Below the pieces are notes generated by a model. That model ran no database searches and had not been told where the DNA came from. It saw only the letters and a list, made by a program, of their open reading frames with translations. A stretch of DNA of 64,000 nt from Lobosporangium transversale (lineage: Eukaryota > Mortierellomycota > Mortierellomycetes > Mortierellales > Mortierellaceae), in NCBI RefSeq assembly GCF_002105155.1, contig NW_019029033.1:124001-188000 (forward strand), written 5' to 3'. Shown here in pieces: positions 38,645 to 47,280 of this stretch (positions are counted from its first letter, which is position 1; each line of letters starts with the position of its first letter). Made by a program: the position numbers and the translations under genes.

Positions 38645-40439
<1,795 letters not shown>

Positions 40440-42600
40440 TATACTCTCCAGCTTTCTCCGCAAGTCCATAAATCCTTCTTCGTACTCTTTCAACGCTCGG
40501 ACAGTGACCTCTTCTCTCTTTCTCTTCTTTTCCTCTCTATCTTTAGCTCTCATTTCATTCAGCTGGCGCAGTAAGGCTGGAGAGATAAAACTCTGAGAAG
40601 GGGCCCTAAGTCGAGGTCTATGTGCTTGTGCTGATGTTCAATGTGCAAAGGGGCAGCACCATACTGAACATCAAAGCCGTCGTAGACCCTTGACACCAGA
40701 TACATGTGCTTGCAAGGGATCCTCTGTCGGACATAGTCAGGACATGAACATGACTGAAGGAGGCCCCTTTCTACGTCCGTGGCAACGGAGTATTTTACTT
40801 CGGATTCTGTGAACGATTTTGCTACGAAATGTATGGAATGAAAGAACGATAAGAACCTCTACATATACAATCTAAGTTGTGGAATTGTCAATCCTCGACA
40901 CATACCTCTTTCTCGACCAAATTATCGCATACCATGGCCCTTGCGTCCATAGGGCTCACTGACATCGCTCTCGCCAACCTTTCTTAGTCGTACTGCGAAA
41001 GCACTGCAGGTTGAATTCCGTTTTTGACCTTGAAATACTACGTCCTGAAGTCCTGGTCAATAGGCCCCTGTAGCATGTAGATTAGGAAATCAATTCGTAA
41101 ACTGCGCTTCCCTTCCATTGCATGTGCCTTCAAAGCCTTGAACCAAGACTCCAGAGGGTTGTTTGTGTCTACGTGATGGTAGTCCTATTAAGTGGATTAG
41201 AATGTCAGGGAATAAGATTCATTGAAGCAGTCATTTAATACCGCCGTTTACCGCTGCTTTATCTTGTCTCTGACACATAAAGCACCCATTTTAGTCCCCT
41301 CCCTTTCGCGACCCAGTTCTCTTCCATATAGCGAAAGAAGGCTTTGGCTTGGCGGTTATCGGGGTTATAAAATTGGTTCTTTATACTACTCAATACTTTA
41401 TCTATATCTTCGTCAAACTCTGCAACGCGCATTTTTTAAGCAAAGCCTTCATTTGATCCCAGTATCGCTCCTAAGGAGTATGAATACGCGTTAAACCATT
41501 ATCGTCAAGATATCTTGATGTAGTGCCGACATGATGTACTTTGCCTTGAATCTGTTCCTCATGTGGTACTCCCATAACTTCTGCACATGGAGGTGGCAGA
41601 AGTAAATTGATGCGGAGGAAAACACTTCCTGAACGGCATCACTCTGCGTCAGTGGGCAGTCCACTATGAACTTTGACGCCTTGAAGTCGCAATCGGTTCC
41701 GAGCCACGATAACCATCTCTCTATGAGAAATCTGTCGTTGAACATAATGTAATGGTCTCAGCTTGGTAGACACCAATTTCACATCGTTGCTAGAATTTGC
41801 CAAACTTACGATGATTCTGAGCTGAAGAGTATATGGGCAACTGGGATGCCTTTTTTCAAACCCCGATACTTGACAAGGATTGTAAATAGGTAGACTGAAG
41901 AGTCACTATCCCTTTTGCCCTTGCCCTTTTCATTCCTCACAGACATAGCAACTCTCCGTGTGAAGTCCATGCAGGCTATCAAACTGTTATCCTCCATAAC
42001 TTGTTGAAAACAGTAACGAGGACCTTAAATAAGGTTATCACCATAGGGATTATATTATGAACCAGGGCGGATTCTTACTTTCAATTGGAATTTCGTATAC
42101 CAGGCAATTAGATAGTTTTGCGGATCGTTGGTACCAATTTCATTAGCAAGCCACCCTTTGCCCTGATTTCCTTGAATTCCCTTCATCCACCCCTCGACAC
42201 TAGTGACAACACTATCACCTCGGGTGAACTCCTTTATCTGTTTATGTTAGATTCCTGTACGTACATTATTGAAAGTGATAAGAAAGCTTGGAGGAGGACT
42301 TTGCACCCCTGCCTCAACCTGCAAATCATGAGATGTTAGCTATGATCTAAGCGAATGTAACAGTATCCAACACATGCTGAAATGGTCATTACCGATTGAA
42401 GGCCCTTTTCAGTTGGCCTCAATTCATTCTTGATACATTTCCAATCATGGCCACCGCAGATCATCGGCCGCATCCAATTGTGCTCGTTAGGCTCTAGAGG
42501 AAGATCGGCTCTAGACTGTGCTGAAATTCCATGGTTGTGGCATCTATAATACTCCACCATAATCCGATATTGCTCAATAAGTTCTTTGATTCTGATATAT
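40440..42600 (-). pseudogene. Mutator-like (MULE) transposase remnant with SWIM finger
   Basis: Several minus-strand frames line up as one decayed MULE transposase. In order: YYRCHNHGI (about 42,540), CMDFTRRVAMS with the first catalytic Asp and GIPVAHILFSSES (41,997-41,806), FIVDCPLTQSDAVQEVF with HLHVQKLW (41,745-41,491), TNNPLESWFKALK (about 41,150), a SWIM zinc finger CSCPDYVRQRIPCKHMYLVS (about 40,740), and a coiled C-terminus ending near 40,440. Stops and frame changes separate the pieces. The intact enzyme would move DNA by a DDE reaction. Terminal inverted repeats were not found. It sits left of the XPG/Fanzor-like locus. Confidence 0.8.
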
Positions 42601-43061
42601 ACCGAGCATTTGCTACCAATCGGTCAACTTTTCTTTCGAACCTTGGCGCCAACAGACGTATTTGACTGGCCAATTGGATTCACGTGGACGGCTGCGGCCA
42701 GGATATGCCTTACTGTACGTAGGAAGTGGTGTATCCAGGTTCCCTTTATGGGCAAGAATAAATCGAGAGTTATTCTCCGAGTACTCTGCCCATTGATATG
42801 TAGGCCTTTCTTAGCCCCAGAATTTTCGAAATGCACTGAACATGAAAACTGTAGTAAAAGGATTAGGTGCCTCCTTAGGAATAGGATAAGGGTCTACTGG
42901 TTCATGTGGATTAAAATTTGGCGAGTATGATAGGATATCCTTTATCGTCAAGCAGCCTATGCTGAGGTTGTGGTCCAGATTTCTCAAATAGAACAGGGAA
43001 GAAGAAGAAAAATGTACAACAAGCACGGGCAATTTTTTCGGTGCAACAACATCACCGGATA

Positions 43062-43099
<38 letters not shown>

Positions 43100-43523
43100 G
43101 ATAACGGCAATAGCACCAGGTGCTCCCGGCGCCCCTAAGTCTGATGTCCCACCGGTGTGTTCCAATGTTTGTGTCTAATTTTGTGTTAAACACCATGCGC
43201 TTCATACGTCGATATTAAGAAAAATTGGACTGATGCCACGTGAAACACCGTGTTGTCCATCCATATGGTCAGTGGTTCTTATATTTTTTGAATGTATTGA
43301 GAGCCAAGTATCTCCCTTGTTACAAGCTCGTCGCGTACGGTGAAATATCAAAATCAGCCACCAATGCAATCCAACCATCATTTTTTGAATAGAAAATATA
43401 AGAATCACTGGTCAAACGAGGAGTATAAGAATTCACACGTTTTTCTTTTTTTCCTCACCCAACATCTCTTTCTTTAACAGTTCCTCCGATATCCCGCTTC
43501 TATATTCATATCACCTCTTAACA
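42601..43523. other. Region between MULE remnant and XPG/Fanzor-like locus
   Basis: Minus-strand 42811-42990 (LTIKDILSYSPNFNPHEPVD) may be the N-terminal exon of the MULE or of another dead gene. A T tract fills 43063-43098. A possible small MITE lies at 43270-43410. Confidence 0.35.
43270..43410. mobile_element. Possible small MITE
   Basis: The 141-bp stretch starts CAGTGGTTCTTATATTTT and ends with the near-complement AAAATATAAGAATCACTG. The CAGTG ends resemble the hAT-like MITEs here, but no 8-bp duplication is visible, so this is tentative. Confidence 0.4.
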
Positions 43524-46271
43524 ATGGGTATCGAGGGCCTCTGGTCTTTTCTCCTAAAGAAGGGCTATGAGGCGAGTCTTCACTACCATTCGTCAATCTG
43601 CTCTACCTCCAATCCCTCCAACCCCTTGAATCACGACGCTTTCATAAGGTTTGATGTTTTAGGACCCTTGTATCCGACAATTCGAAACGCATACTCCAAT
43701 CATTCCCTCGATACAGCCCACAAGATCATGGAAAGGGCGCTGGAGAAATATGGAGCGTCGCGTCAGAAAATCTTATTCTGTATCTTGACGACGACGCTTG
43801 TGAGGAAAAAAGACTTACCCATATATGTCGAGAGCAAGTGCGAGCCAAGGCACTGATGGACGCCCAACGAGGGCTCGATGAGTTATACGAACGCGTACAA
43901 AGCAAGAGTCGAGTCCGAAAGAAACAATTCCTGACTGTAATTAAGGCGTTGGATATGGCCCTCCATTGGTCAAAAGAAGCACGAGGCTCGTTCGCGATCT
44001 ACATGCGGAGCAAGAATTGCCTTGTTCAAGAATGTCAATCCGAGGCAGACGTTGCTATCGCGACTGATTGCTAACTCGAGGATGTAGTTGTGTCCCGAGA
44101 CAGCGACATGTTCGCATACAGGAACATCTCAACGCTTTGGTGCCCTATCTCGAGAGGCCGCATTTTGGTGTATAAGCTTGCAGACGTACTCGCCGTCCTG
44201 TATATTACACGACTGCAGTTGACGGTACCGTGTATCGTGAGCAAGAACGATTACACTTGCAACATTTCCCGGCTTGGAAATATTACTAACTACAAAATCG
44301 TCAAGGAGCAGATTGGAGAAGGTAATGGCATACCGTAGAGTAGTAAGCTGTCTAAAAGGTTGATCTCACATCAAACCCTCTCTCTTCCTTTTTTTGCTTT
44401 TTCAAAAAAAGATCCCAAGAGCATGATCCAAGGTTACTTGAGTCACAATGAAGTGTGAGAAAGGAAGGTAGACTATGGATATTTTGAAAACTCCATAAGG
44501 GTTTTTGTAGATCTGCAACAGAGCAAATGTCTACCAGCTGCACTTCAGGCTTCCGTACAAGTCCCTTTGACTCATAAAATCTACTACAGAGACTGGCTTT
44601 AATCCGCGAACAACTAAAAAGGAATAAGAGTACAGGTAGAAGGCAATGTGCTCTGATCTAGCTCTTTATCCCTTTTTTACTCCATCTTCATTCAGCTAAC
44701 CCACTTTTGCAGCCTTAACATGGACATTGCCTCTGTTGACAGCTGTCCCAGACGAAAAGGTACTCGGATACATTCAACGTTTTTAGCTCTATCGATCGAG
44801 CACCTGCCCTATGGCCTCCTTCGCACGCTTCAGGACGGAAATATAAGTATCGAGAGCGGTATTCATTCAAGGCCCGTTCCCGAAAGCTCGAACATGCCTG
44901 TCCAGAGATCATGAAGAATACAAACAGAGAGAGCAGAAAGACAATCCCAATGCAAATACTCTTGGCTCTAATAAGCAGCAGAAGAAGCAGAAAGAAAAGA
45001 CGAAAAGGCCACAAAAACCGGTAGACGAAATGGATAAAAAAGACTTGGCCAGGGCTATGCAGTATAAACACCCAACTAGGCCTCTTGATATCGAGACTAT
45101 CAACGGCAACCTGAATAGAATACTGACTGATAAGCCCCAGTTGAGATCTAAGATTAAGACTTGCCTCCAACAAGCTGTTCGCTGTGCTTCGAAGACCAAG
45201 CGCACTTCCCGGAGAGCTATTGGCCAGTACATTGAGCAGCTTTCAGGTACCGGCGTCAGTGGCTGTATCTAGCAAGAGTGTGGCCAGTGATGAGGGTCCT
45301 GAAGGAGAGAAGATGCAGAGGACGATGAAAACGAAACAAAAGATACTAATACGATCTTTCTGTTCTCGTTCCTCGTATGCATCTACTACAAGAGGCCCCC
45401 AGTTAGCAAAGGAAAGGTCGCTCATGTGCTCAGCTTCATCCTGAAGGCCAAAGACTTTTTGCCTGCTATGGCTGATGCTGGCGCGATCAATAAAAGGATG
45501 CGCTATCCAGGGACTGCTGTTCTGTGATCAGTTGGCACACAACTCAAGATTGAGTTAAGGAATCATTACAAGGGAGCAGTACTCCTATTTGATCCGAACA
45601 TATCGAATTCAAATGGGTTCGAATGCATTCGAATCGAAAACGAACCATGGTAAGTTCGAATCTATTCGAATAGTTAATGATTCGAATGGCGCCATTCAAT
45701 TACAGATCTCTAGATAATTCGAGTCGTTCGATTACTTCGAGTATCGAATGGCTCGAATGGCTCGAATGGCTCGAATGGTTCTAATAGGAGCACTGTAAGG
45801 GAGGCACACAAGCGCTTTGCAGAAAGGCACATGTGTCAAGCTCTGATAGGCGCCATCATCCCATGTTGGATGGAGCAACGGAAGACAGCAGCGGCCTACA
45901 ATTCACAGTCCATCAGTGACATCGAGACCAGCCTGCCTTCTCTTCGTGGAGTCGATGCAAGTATAAAAAATTACATTGAGAGGCTCAGAGGCGTGGAGAA
46001 AGACCTTGATTCCTTCTATAGCAGCAACAATGTTATCAAGAAACATAGGTGGGATGCAAAGAGAGCTCGGGCTGAATAATACAAGAAGAATGCTAATAGT
46101 CTACTCAAGACGGTTGGCGGATCAATCGGAGCAAAAATAAATGAGGGAAACAAGGTGGTGATCGGGGTGGGCCTTGGTAAGTTCTCGTCAAACGCAAAGC
46201 TGTCATCTTTACACGAATCATTCCAGTCGTACTTCGTGAAAACGGTATGTACTCGCCCACTATTTTCTTTA

Positions 46272-46304
<33 letters not shown>

Positions 46305-46731
46305 TGATGGTCATATGGAATTAAGCAGTAGCGTCGGTCACTGCTTTTTATTGCCACTATTATCACATTGTAGCACTTATCTTGCATTTCTGTCCCATTA
46401 GGTCTGATCTCTCGGATACATCGTTGTAGGCGTAAACGAATACTATACCTCAAAAAAATGCTCGACGTGTCAAGGATTTGTTAGCCAGGTTGAGATCCGT
46501 TGGCTGTGCTGCAGCAGCTGCAAGGCATTCATGCACAGAGATATCATGGCAGGCCATAACATTTGCAATGTTGTTCAGGGCCATCTACTTTATCAAGAAC
46601 GACCATCCTATCTTGTGCCAAACCAAAATAAGATAACTTCCAGGGCGGAAGAGAGCGGTCAAGCGACAGCACCGCCCGAGCAAGAAGAGGAGCCCAGAAG
46701 CAGCAAGAGGATCCACCTTGAGAATTTGTAG
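43524..46731 (+). pseudogene. Degenerate gene with XPG/FEN1-like nuclease domain and Fanzor/TnpB-like C-terminus
   Basis: The ATG at 43524 opens MGIEGLWSFLLKKGYEASL, the XPG/FEN1 N-terminus. Acidic nuclease motifs follow: FDVLGPLY, YLDDDACEEKRLT, QECQSEADVAIA and VVSRDSDMFAY, then CIVSKNDY...ISRLG. Lesions include a frameshift near 43,775, a stop at about 44,070 (ATDC*LEDVV) and more frame changes to 45,530. A Lys-rich middle (KKQKEKTKRPQKPVDEMDKKD) leads to a C-terminal part with VIGVGLGKFSSNAKLSSLHESF (RuvC-II-like, 46,150-46,240), an A-tract intron, then GVNEYYTSKKCSTC...CCSSC...HRDIMAGHNICN (46,433-46,580), the four-Cys finger and RuvC-III Asp seen in TnpB and eukaryotic Fanzor. No RuvC-I segment was found. 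Two adjacent dead genes remain possible, but the pieces are collinear on one strand. Confidence 0.65.
45577..45795. mobile_element. hAT-like MITE (219 bp) inside the XPG/Fanzor-like locus
   Basis: The ends CAGTACTCC and AGGAGCACTG and the TTCGAA-rich body match the MITE at 958. The flanks CAAGGGAG (45569-45576) and TAAGGGAG (45796-45803) are an 8-bp duplication with one difference. It falls between the middle region and the RuvC-like part, in coding sequence. Confidence 0.88.
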
Positions 46732-46929
46732 TTCAATTAGATTTACATAATTTAGACAATATATGCGTGTCAGCAAATACGCTAGTCTAGTGCTGGGTGC
46801 GGGCGTTGAGAGGCTACTGCGTGTCTGTTTTCAGTGATGCAATAGGGCCAAGATCGTGCTGTACCCAAAGGGATCAGCTGGTTTATTGTTCTTTCTGGTT
46901 CCTATCAAAAAAAAAAAACTCAGATCTGC
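46732..46929. other. 3' flank of the XPG/Fanzor-like locus
   Basis: It follows the last stop (TAG at about 46729). In TnpB/Fanzor loci a guide RNA overlaps or follows the 3' end. I see no convincing hairpin or conserved block to support one. Confidence 0.3.
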
Positions 46930-47280
46930 TACTGCTTGCATATCCTTCAATGTGCACTTTCTTTTTTGCCTATTATATGCTATACGGCCCAACTCCTTCT
47001 GCAGAACCATAAGCTCTTCCTTGCACTTTTCGAACTCTTGGACGGCGACTTATTCCCTCTCTTTGGCTCAGGCATAAGGATGGGTGGGTCCTCAATACCG
47101 TAGGCTGAATTTGTGTACTGCGTAATACTCATCAGTAGAAGGGCCTGACCTTGTCTCCAGTTGTAGCAATTCTTCGCGATCAATTATCTTGGGCTCTGAT
47201 ACTCCTGTATGCTGACCTGAAGTAGGGTAGCTGTCCTCTGTTTCAGACATTCAAAGCCTTAAGGCCCTTGGGCTGATCAG
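46930..47280 (-). pseudogene. Second MULE transposase C-terminal fragment
   Basis: Read on the minus strand, 47060-46930 gives VQEFEKCKEELMVLQKELG and KRKCTLKDMQ, matching the C-terminal coiled part of the remnant at 40,440-40,520 (EYEEGFMDLRRKLES, KCTLKDIQ). The preceding part, from an ATG near 47250 (MSETEDSYPTSGQ), is acidic and unrecognised. The two fragments bracket the XPG/Fanzor-like locus in the same orientation. Confidence 0.6.

Follow-up and report, generated by a model that had tools for sequence, protein, structure and literature searches.

A transposon-borne gene of Lobosporangium transversale that very probably fuses an XPG/FEN1-type nuclease to a Fanzor1-type nuclease

The window analysed here is a 64,000-nucleotide stretch of the genome of the Mortierellaceae fungus Lobosporangium transversale, namely bases 124001-188000 of contig C79 (NW_019029033.1). 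At positions 43524..46731 it holds a decayed coding region, which we consider fairly likely to be a copy, residing in a Mutator-like transposon, of a gene for an XPG/FEN1-type nuclease, a lysine/glutamate-rich linker and a Fanzor1-type REC/WED/RuvC/zinc-finger nuclease, the product of which would act as a homing nuclease with a built-in end processor. Comparison with its relatives in the same genome (own-genome searches covered 42.7 Mb in 127 contigs) shows, at the level of sequence, that the two parts are built as one gene, that each half keeps its catalytic residues and was once under purifying selection, and that the gene resides in transposons.

Relatives of the window gene in the genome

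Searches of the genome returned at least 111 matches for the finger of the window copy and at least 78 for its XPG part. With these two ends as queries, 48 of 72 merged XPG places were followed within 6 kb by a finger in the same orientation, and 38 of these 48 pairs were spaced 2.6-3.3 kb apart. The match lists gave no partner for 24 of the 72 XPG places or for 60 of the 108 merged finger places. The neighbourhood of XPG part and finger is not a matter of chance, because the correct pairs at 48 of 72 places compare with three neighbours on the wrong strand or in the wrong order.

Three families of the gene could be told apart, namely W (the window copy, C13 and C59), A, and B (L060-L063). The window copy shares 78-83% DNA identity with C13 and C59 over the longer aligned parts. 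Within family A, most pairs of copies show 97-99% identity across the main 4-kb block, and within family B identity is 87-96% in the longer blocks. The pairing was seen again with queries from families A and B, in counts that took in 15 of 105 A-type XPG matches, 34 of 120 B-type XPG matches and 89 of 136 finger matches. The finger exon lay downstream of the XPG exon on the same strand at a distance of 3.0-4.0 kb for all 15 near-full-length A exons, each of them free of stops in the XPG exon, and at 2.2-3.3 kb for 28 of 34 listed B places; wrong-side finger neighbours numbered none for A and three for B. Paralogs that keep the XPG and RuvC parts always apart, named in the sequence-only reading as the outcome that would speak against it, were not seen, and families A, B and W hold both in one gene.

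Among the finger copies with no XPG partner, three of family A were read (L064, L065 and L066). They are deletion derivatives that have lost part or all of the XPG exon and from which RuvC-I is gone too, and a separate Fanzor family without XPG was rejected as a candidate on these three copies, within the part of the 136 finger matches that was read. One of them lies just past the right end of the window (L064, C79:187800-193800). Viral contigs scanned with the XPG and C-terminal alignments gave 23 and 58 pattern matches, respectively, none of them confirmed.

Evidence for a single fused gene

Judging from exon structure, the XPG and Fanzor parts very probably form one fused gene. In family A, exon 1 comprises the 341 codons of the XPG part and ends at GTAAGC, the acceptor reads CTAATTAG, and two more GT-AG introns follow. 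The first intron of family B (GTAAGA) is in phase 2, and its second and third introns are in phase 0 at the same places; C13 of family W has the same intron set plus one extra intron within XPG (both by eye). Intron positions and phases (2,0,0) therefore agree across A, B and W. Furthermore, the stretch right behind the first splice junction is alike in A (FYIPKRAKPNRYRP) and B (FYIAKGSHRNQFRP).

Once three GT-AG introns are removed, the A copy C51 has an uninterrupted frame of 1,209 codons from the XPG ATG through RuvC-III, and the first Met in its exon 2 comes 149 residues past the exon start. The codons directly past the RuvC-III part of C51 are frame-shifted relative to sister copies, so the tail of this copy is atypical. 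Seven A copies were joined in silico: two were without the RuvC-II region, one of the other five (C51) was open throughout, and the four remaining had frameshifts or stops, in two of them within an A-rich tract. In family B, a deletion spanning the intron gives copy L063 one frame of 512 codons that extends out of XPG and into the middle part. The search for full-length paralogs that had been proposed for related genomes thus found better-preserved copies in this one. The proposal that the intact parent fused an XPG-type 5' nuclease to a Fanzor is supported too, given that three families about 30% identical in XPG keep both parts in one multi-exon gene and that C51 is open.

Catalytic residues and profile matches of the two halves

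The XPG exon of family A is 31% identical to that of B and 29% identical to that of C13. An alignment of the three shows seven invariant acids (D36, D85, E171, D173, D190, D192 and D243), which correspond to the seven metal-binding acids of FEN1. Searched against solved structures, a profile of the three XPG exons matched FEN1 (2e-8), ERCC5 (4.6e-6), RAD2 (4.8e-6) and EXO1 (0.02). Against the single rows of the XPG alignment, PF00867 matched all three, with a best value of 6.1e-5 and 0.076 for the A row, and two family members came above the cut-off in the genome search with this model (C117 and C13). The strong PF00867 matches in C76, C1, C95 and C55 are other loci, of which, by eye, that in C76 is Rad2-like and that in C95 EXO1-like. 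A host XPG gene was rejected as part of the element, since the strong match in C76 resembles a Rad2-type host gene. About 2 kb downstream of this Rad2/XPG-like gene lies a W-type finger fragment that resembles an element remnant (L024, C76:131964-132188).

In the C-terminal part, identity to family A is 42% for B and 28% for C13. When A, B and C13 are aligned, no family departs from the others at the RuvC-I Asp, at the Glu that precedes the finger, or at the TS pair, the four Cys and the RD. The RuvC-I Asp lies in DPG in A and B and in DLG in the window family; the alternative Glu (E487 of the C-terminal alignment, with six residues between it and C494) is invariant and also found in the window copy. 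Family A has the full series D-X(125,275)-[TS][TS]xx-C4-X(5,50)-RD in D266, T490 S491, C494 C499 C513 C516 and R522 D523, all invariant. The RuvC-I DxG, the alternative Glu, the TS pair, the C4 finger and the RD are the Fanzor marks as defined in PMC10711439 and PMC3627910. A further motif upstream reads TDG in the window family and TNG in A and B, and presumably belongs to the WED part. The best related structures for the C-terminal profile were Cas12f1 (0.003), LaTranC (0.044) and chains named IS605 OrfB C-terminal domain (0.17), and a single-sequence search of the PDB with the A C-terminal part returned only trypsins, at 0.17 or worse. Both active centres are probably functional in intact copies.

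Selection on both halves

Between the window copy and C13, at a synonymous divergence (dS) of 0.33-0.62, the ratio of nonsynonymous to synonymous divergence (dN/dS) came to 0.24 and 0.27 for two pieces of XPG, 0.26 for exon 2, 0.13 for RuvC-II and 0.21 for the finger; the comparison covered the pieces present in the window, from which the REC/RuvC-I piece is missing. Because dN/dS was 0.13-0.27 in both halves, both were held by selection in the window lineage before decay. C13 and C59 differ by too few changes for a reading of dN/dS. Family A compared with its relatives C46, C72 and C44 gave 0.12-0.71 over twelve domain comparisons.

The window copy

The layout of the window copy was mapped by tblastn with protein pieces of C13, and all parts lie on the plus strand. 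The XPG nuclease domain (43524..44317; C13 match 43527-44317, with the catalytic acids aligned via relatives) is decayed, with a frameshift near 43.77 kb and one in-frame TAA. The C-terminal part of the XPG coding part (44420..44643) stands behind an intron seen in the window family and is followed by the basic linker and middle part (44746..45572). Next comes a poorly alignable, TTCGAATGG-rich stretch (45573..45866) in the place of the REC/WED and RuvC-I of relatives, which take up about 1 kb in C13. The part behind RuvC-I together with the RuvC-II segment (45867..46238) is 85% identical to C13 over 124 residues, and the last exon (46408..46731; C13 match 46408-46728) holds the alternative Glu, the C4 zinc finger and the last RuvC Asp.

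The XPG block and the finger are thus where the sequence-only reading had placed them, and XPG, linker and middle part, RuvC-II and finger are collinear over 43527-46728. The RuvC-I Asp segment that it expected between 45,530 and 45,803 is absent, and the REC/WED/RuvC-I piece of C13 found no tblastn match in the window. Between about 45,561 and 45,860, alignment to C13 reached only 42-60%, in a region rich in TTCGAATGG-like words; repeats of the TTCGAATGG type occupy 45573-45866, the place of the lost RuvC-I part. With this loss, frameshifts and stops, the window copy is a pseudogene. Of the profile hidden Markov model check, the finger half came out clearly, with Pfam PF07282 (Cas12f1-like TNB) at 2.1e-11 for 46408-46731; the XPG piece by itself gave a weak match, PF00867 at 0.14.

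Transposons carrying the fusion

The window gene lies inside a 6.6-kb Mutator-like transposon (40271-46866), which adjoins a spermidine synthase gene. Its left terminal inverted repeat of 22 bp (40271..40292, plus strand) matches the right one (46845..46866, minus strand) at 19 of 22 positions, and identical 8-bp target-site duplications flank the element (40263..40270 and 46867..46874). On the minus strand it carries a decayed FAR1/MULE/SWIM-type transposase (40425..42679), whose frame 40562-40858 matched SWIM (PF04434) at 8.6e-7. Pfam gave no MULE match for the MULE-like frame of the window itself (41494-41757), and homologous pieces of C59 matched MULE at 1.8e-4 and FAR1 at 0.0016, both below the Pfam cut-offs. 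The window copy therefore has the marks of a Mutator-like element, namely terminal inverted repeats, a target-site duplication in the range of 8-11 bp and a MULE transposase.

For family A the two ends of the element read TAGCCCGTTCCATT...AATGGGACGGACTA, and 9 of the 11 copies in which both are readable have TA at either flank. For family B they read TATCCCTT...CAACAGATA, as seen at three left ends and four right ones, and TA stands at either flank in 3 of 3 copies. With Mutator-like ends in W and different ones in A and B, at least two kinds of transposon ends carry the fusion. No further gene or transposase was recognised by eye in the A element of C51. The 5' regions of A and B yielded a list of 21 frames, and the 10 of these scanned with Pfam gave no match. 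The combination of TA duplication and DDE transposase that characterises Tc1/mariner was not found as a whole in A and B, which could be non-autonomous Tc1/mariner-like elements. A Tc1 transposase in C53 (L065 2114-3753, a 339-codon frame) was rejected as an element gene and is, by eye, a nested Tc1-type insertion. The first 2 kb of the C51 A element hold, on the minus strand, antisense fragments resembling the RuvC-I and TNG motifs of family B.

Left ends of A were readable in 13 cases (12 of 14 copies examined plus one solo end), C1 and one C73 copy having none. In their left flanks (L055-L059, L067-L075 and L080), a G stood ahead of the terminal TA in 13 of 13 and AG in 10 of 13, and the right side had no such pattern (by eye). 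This left-only motif possibly fits a target-adjacent motif of the RNA-guided Fanzor half, with an element-internal G as an alternative. At L080 (C37:47290-47840), a B-type left end abuts an A right end, followed by a solo A left end; elements nest at their ends there.

A candidate RNA at the right end

Fanzors are RNA-guided cutters whose RNA comes from the right end of the element, according to PMC10432273 and PMC10711439. The right end of the window element (46784..46866, plus strand) can fold into a long hairpin. In the three rows available (window 46784-46866, C13 and C59), 71 of 75 pair cells hold (94.7%) and one pair is compensated; pairing fell to 26-44% with the partner slid, in a structure derived from one of the three rows. 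The four folds had z-scores of -0.76, -1.31, -1.67 and -2.72, and Rfam reported nothing above its gathering score in 40200-47000. The hairpin is thus a weak candidate for a guide-RNA scaffold. Of the two features that the sequence-only reading proposed to look for, fixed ends are present in the window element as the 22-bp repeats and the 8-bp duplication, and the structured RNA stays at a candidate hairpin that did not rise above shuffles.

Discussion

We infer RNA guidance and the role of the XPG half, and propose the following course of events. The Fanzor half would bind RNA read off the right end of the element and cut an element-free site on a sister or allele. The XPG half would act on the junctions and 5' ends made there, be it an R-loop junction, a 5' flap or an overhang, and trim them. 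The trimmed ends would steer repair towards homologous recombination from the copy still bearing the element, and such copying repair would restore or spread it. In the window family, the MULE transposase would transpose the element and the fusion protein would do the homing or retention. In the TnpB model, repair copies the element back once the site lacking it has been cut; XPG/FEN1-type nucleases cut at junctions of single and double strands and remove 5' flaps. Since these substrates are the structures expected at an R-loop and a staggered cut, XPG processing of Fanzor-cut ends in favour of copying repair is a possibility that we put forward tentatively.

Several observations weigh against this interpretation. 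The A XPG exon by itself stays under the Pfam cut-off (0.076), and Pfam on the whole spliced C51 protein gives PF07282 (4.3e-7) and no XPG. The three-row C-terminal profile had no Fanzor match among solved structures, and the window family carries DLG at RuvC-I and not the DPG typical of Fanzors. Of the five A copies that have every splice site, just one is free of interruptions along its whole length, and two further joined copies are without RuvC-II. Within A, the higher dN/dS (0.12-0.71) reflects a mix of constraint and decay, as expected if many copies drift. The right-end hairpin is statistically unconvincing, with 341 of 500 shuffles reaching the observed values.

If the XPG-type nuclease and the Fanzor were instead two neighbouring genes of one transposon, translated separately, the stop after the XPG exon in unspliced DNA and the early ATG in exon 2 of the window family would have a ready explanation. 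Separate translation appears unlikely, because the families share in-frame introns, the first block common to A and B stands directly behind the acceptor, exon 2 of C51 has its Met late and no early ATG, and the L063 deletion across the intron leaves one frame; in A, B and W alike, removal of the phase-2 GT-AG intron keeps the reading frame from one exon to the next. We therefore regard two genes as highly improbable. It also appears very unlikely that the XPG half of a fused protein is an inert passenger or a mere DNA-binding platform. A and B are indeed only 31% identical over XPG, compared with 42% over the C-terminal part, but none of the seven catalytic acids has changed between families that share about 30% of their residues there, the XPG pieces have a dN/dS of about 0.25 in the window family, and none of the 15 A exons has a stop.

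Another account assigns the XPG half to transposition, where it would cut flaps or hairpins at the element ends while the RNA-guided half picks or re-cuts sites, so that A and B would move by the fusion alone. The plus-strand frames of at least 100 codons in the C51 A element are exons of the fusion gene or its tail, the Pfam-scanned frames in the 5' regions of A and B (10 of the 21 listed) yielded nothing, and the near-identity of A copies over the main block suggests recent activity. Against this, the window family has its own MULE transposase, the TA-flanked ends of A and B are as expected of trans-mobilised Tc1-like elements, and a Tc1-type element with a 339-codon frame exists in the genome (by eye). 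On balance we think a role in transposition unlikely, and it is rather more doubtful still that A and B, in which no other gene was recognised, are moved or maintained by the fusion protein alone, with the left-flank (A)GTA as its recognition motif in A. If so, a single chain that joins an RNA-guided cutter to a structure-specific nuclease would make a self-sufficient mobilisation or homing machine. The reading that we prefer remains a homing nuclease with its own end processor.

As to what a Fanzor does for its transposon, the XPG fusion points to a role in homing or repair. A natural flap-nuclease fusion that has been kept repeatedly says that ends left by RNA-guided cutting are worth processing. 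The protein would be a natural RNA-guided nuclease with a built-in end processor, to our knowledge otherwise an engineered arrangement. The sequence-only reading knew of no description of such a fusion, and we likewise found none in the open-access literature searched, a coverage that leaves subscription papers and most preprints outside. The term 'XPG' is absent from the main text of PMC3627910, and one paper calls viral Fanzors 'flap endonuclease homologs'.

Among known systems, the XPG/Rad2/FEN1 nucleases share with the element proteins the MG start, the seven catalytic acids and the I-region. They differ in that the XPG of the elements sits in a transposon protein and not in a host repair gene, shares only about 30% identity from one family to another, and matches solved relatives weakly. 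For Fanzor1, we compared Bao & Jurka 2013 (PMC3627910), Saito 2023 (PMC10432273), Yoon 2023 (PMC10711439) and Xu 2024 (PMC11423790). Shared with Fanzor1 are the RuvC-I DxG, the alternative Glu ahead of the C4 finger, the TS motif, the RD, and T(N/D)G in the presumed WED part. Unlike Fanzor1 proteins of 600-800 residues (PMC11423790, PMC10711439), the fusion has about 1,160-1,200, adds an N-terminal XPG nuclease and a basic linker, and has DLG for DPG in the window family. An additional domain is also present in a Mucorales Fanzor, the FRI domain of PpFz1, but this comprises about 100 residues inserted in RuvC and binds cyclophilin, and is not an N-terminal nuclease (PMC11423790). As for Fanzor1 in general, its carriers are eukaryotic transposons of many kinds, MuDR-type and Tc1/mariner ones among them (PMC3627910). 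The Mucoromycota MuDR-type elements ROr-4, PBl-3 and MCi-4 resemble the window element in having MuDR-like ends around Fanzor1; their description mentions 9-bp target-site duplications and the lack of a MuDR transposase (PMC3627910), whereas the window element has a decayed MULE transposase and an 8-bp duplication.

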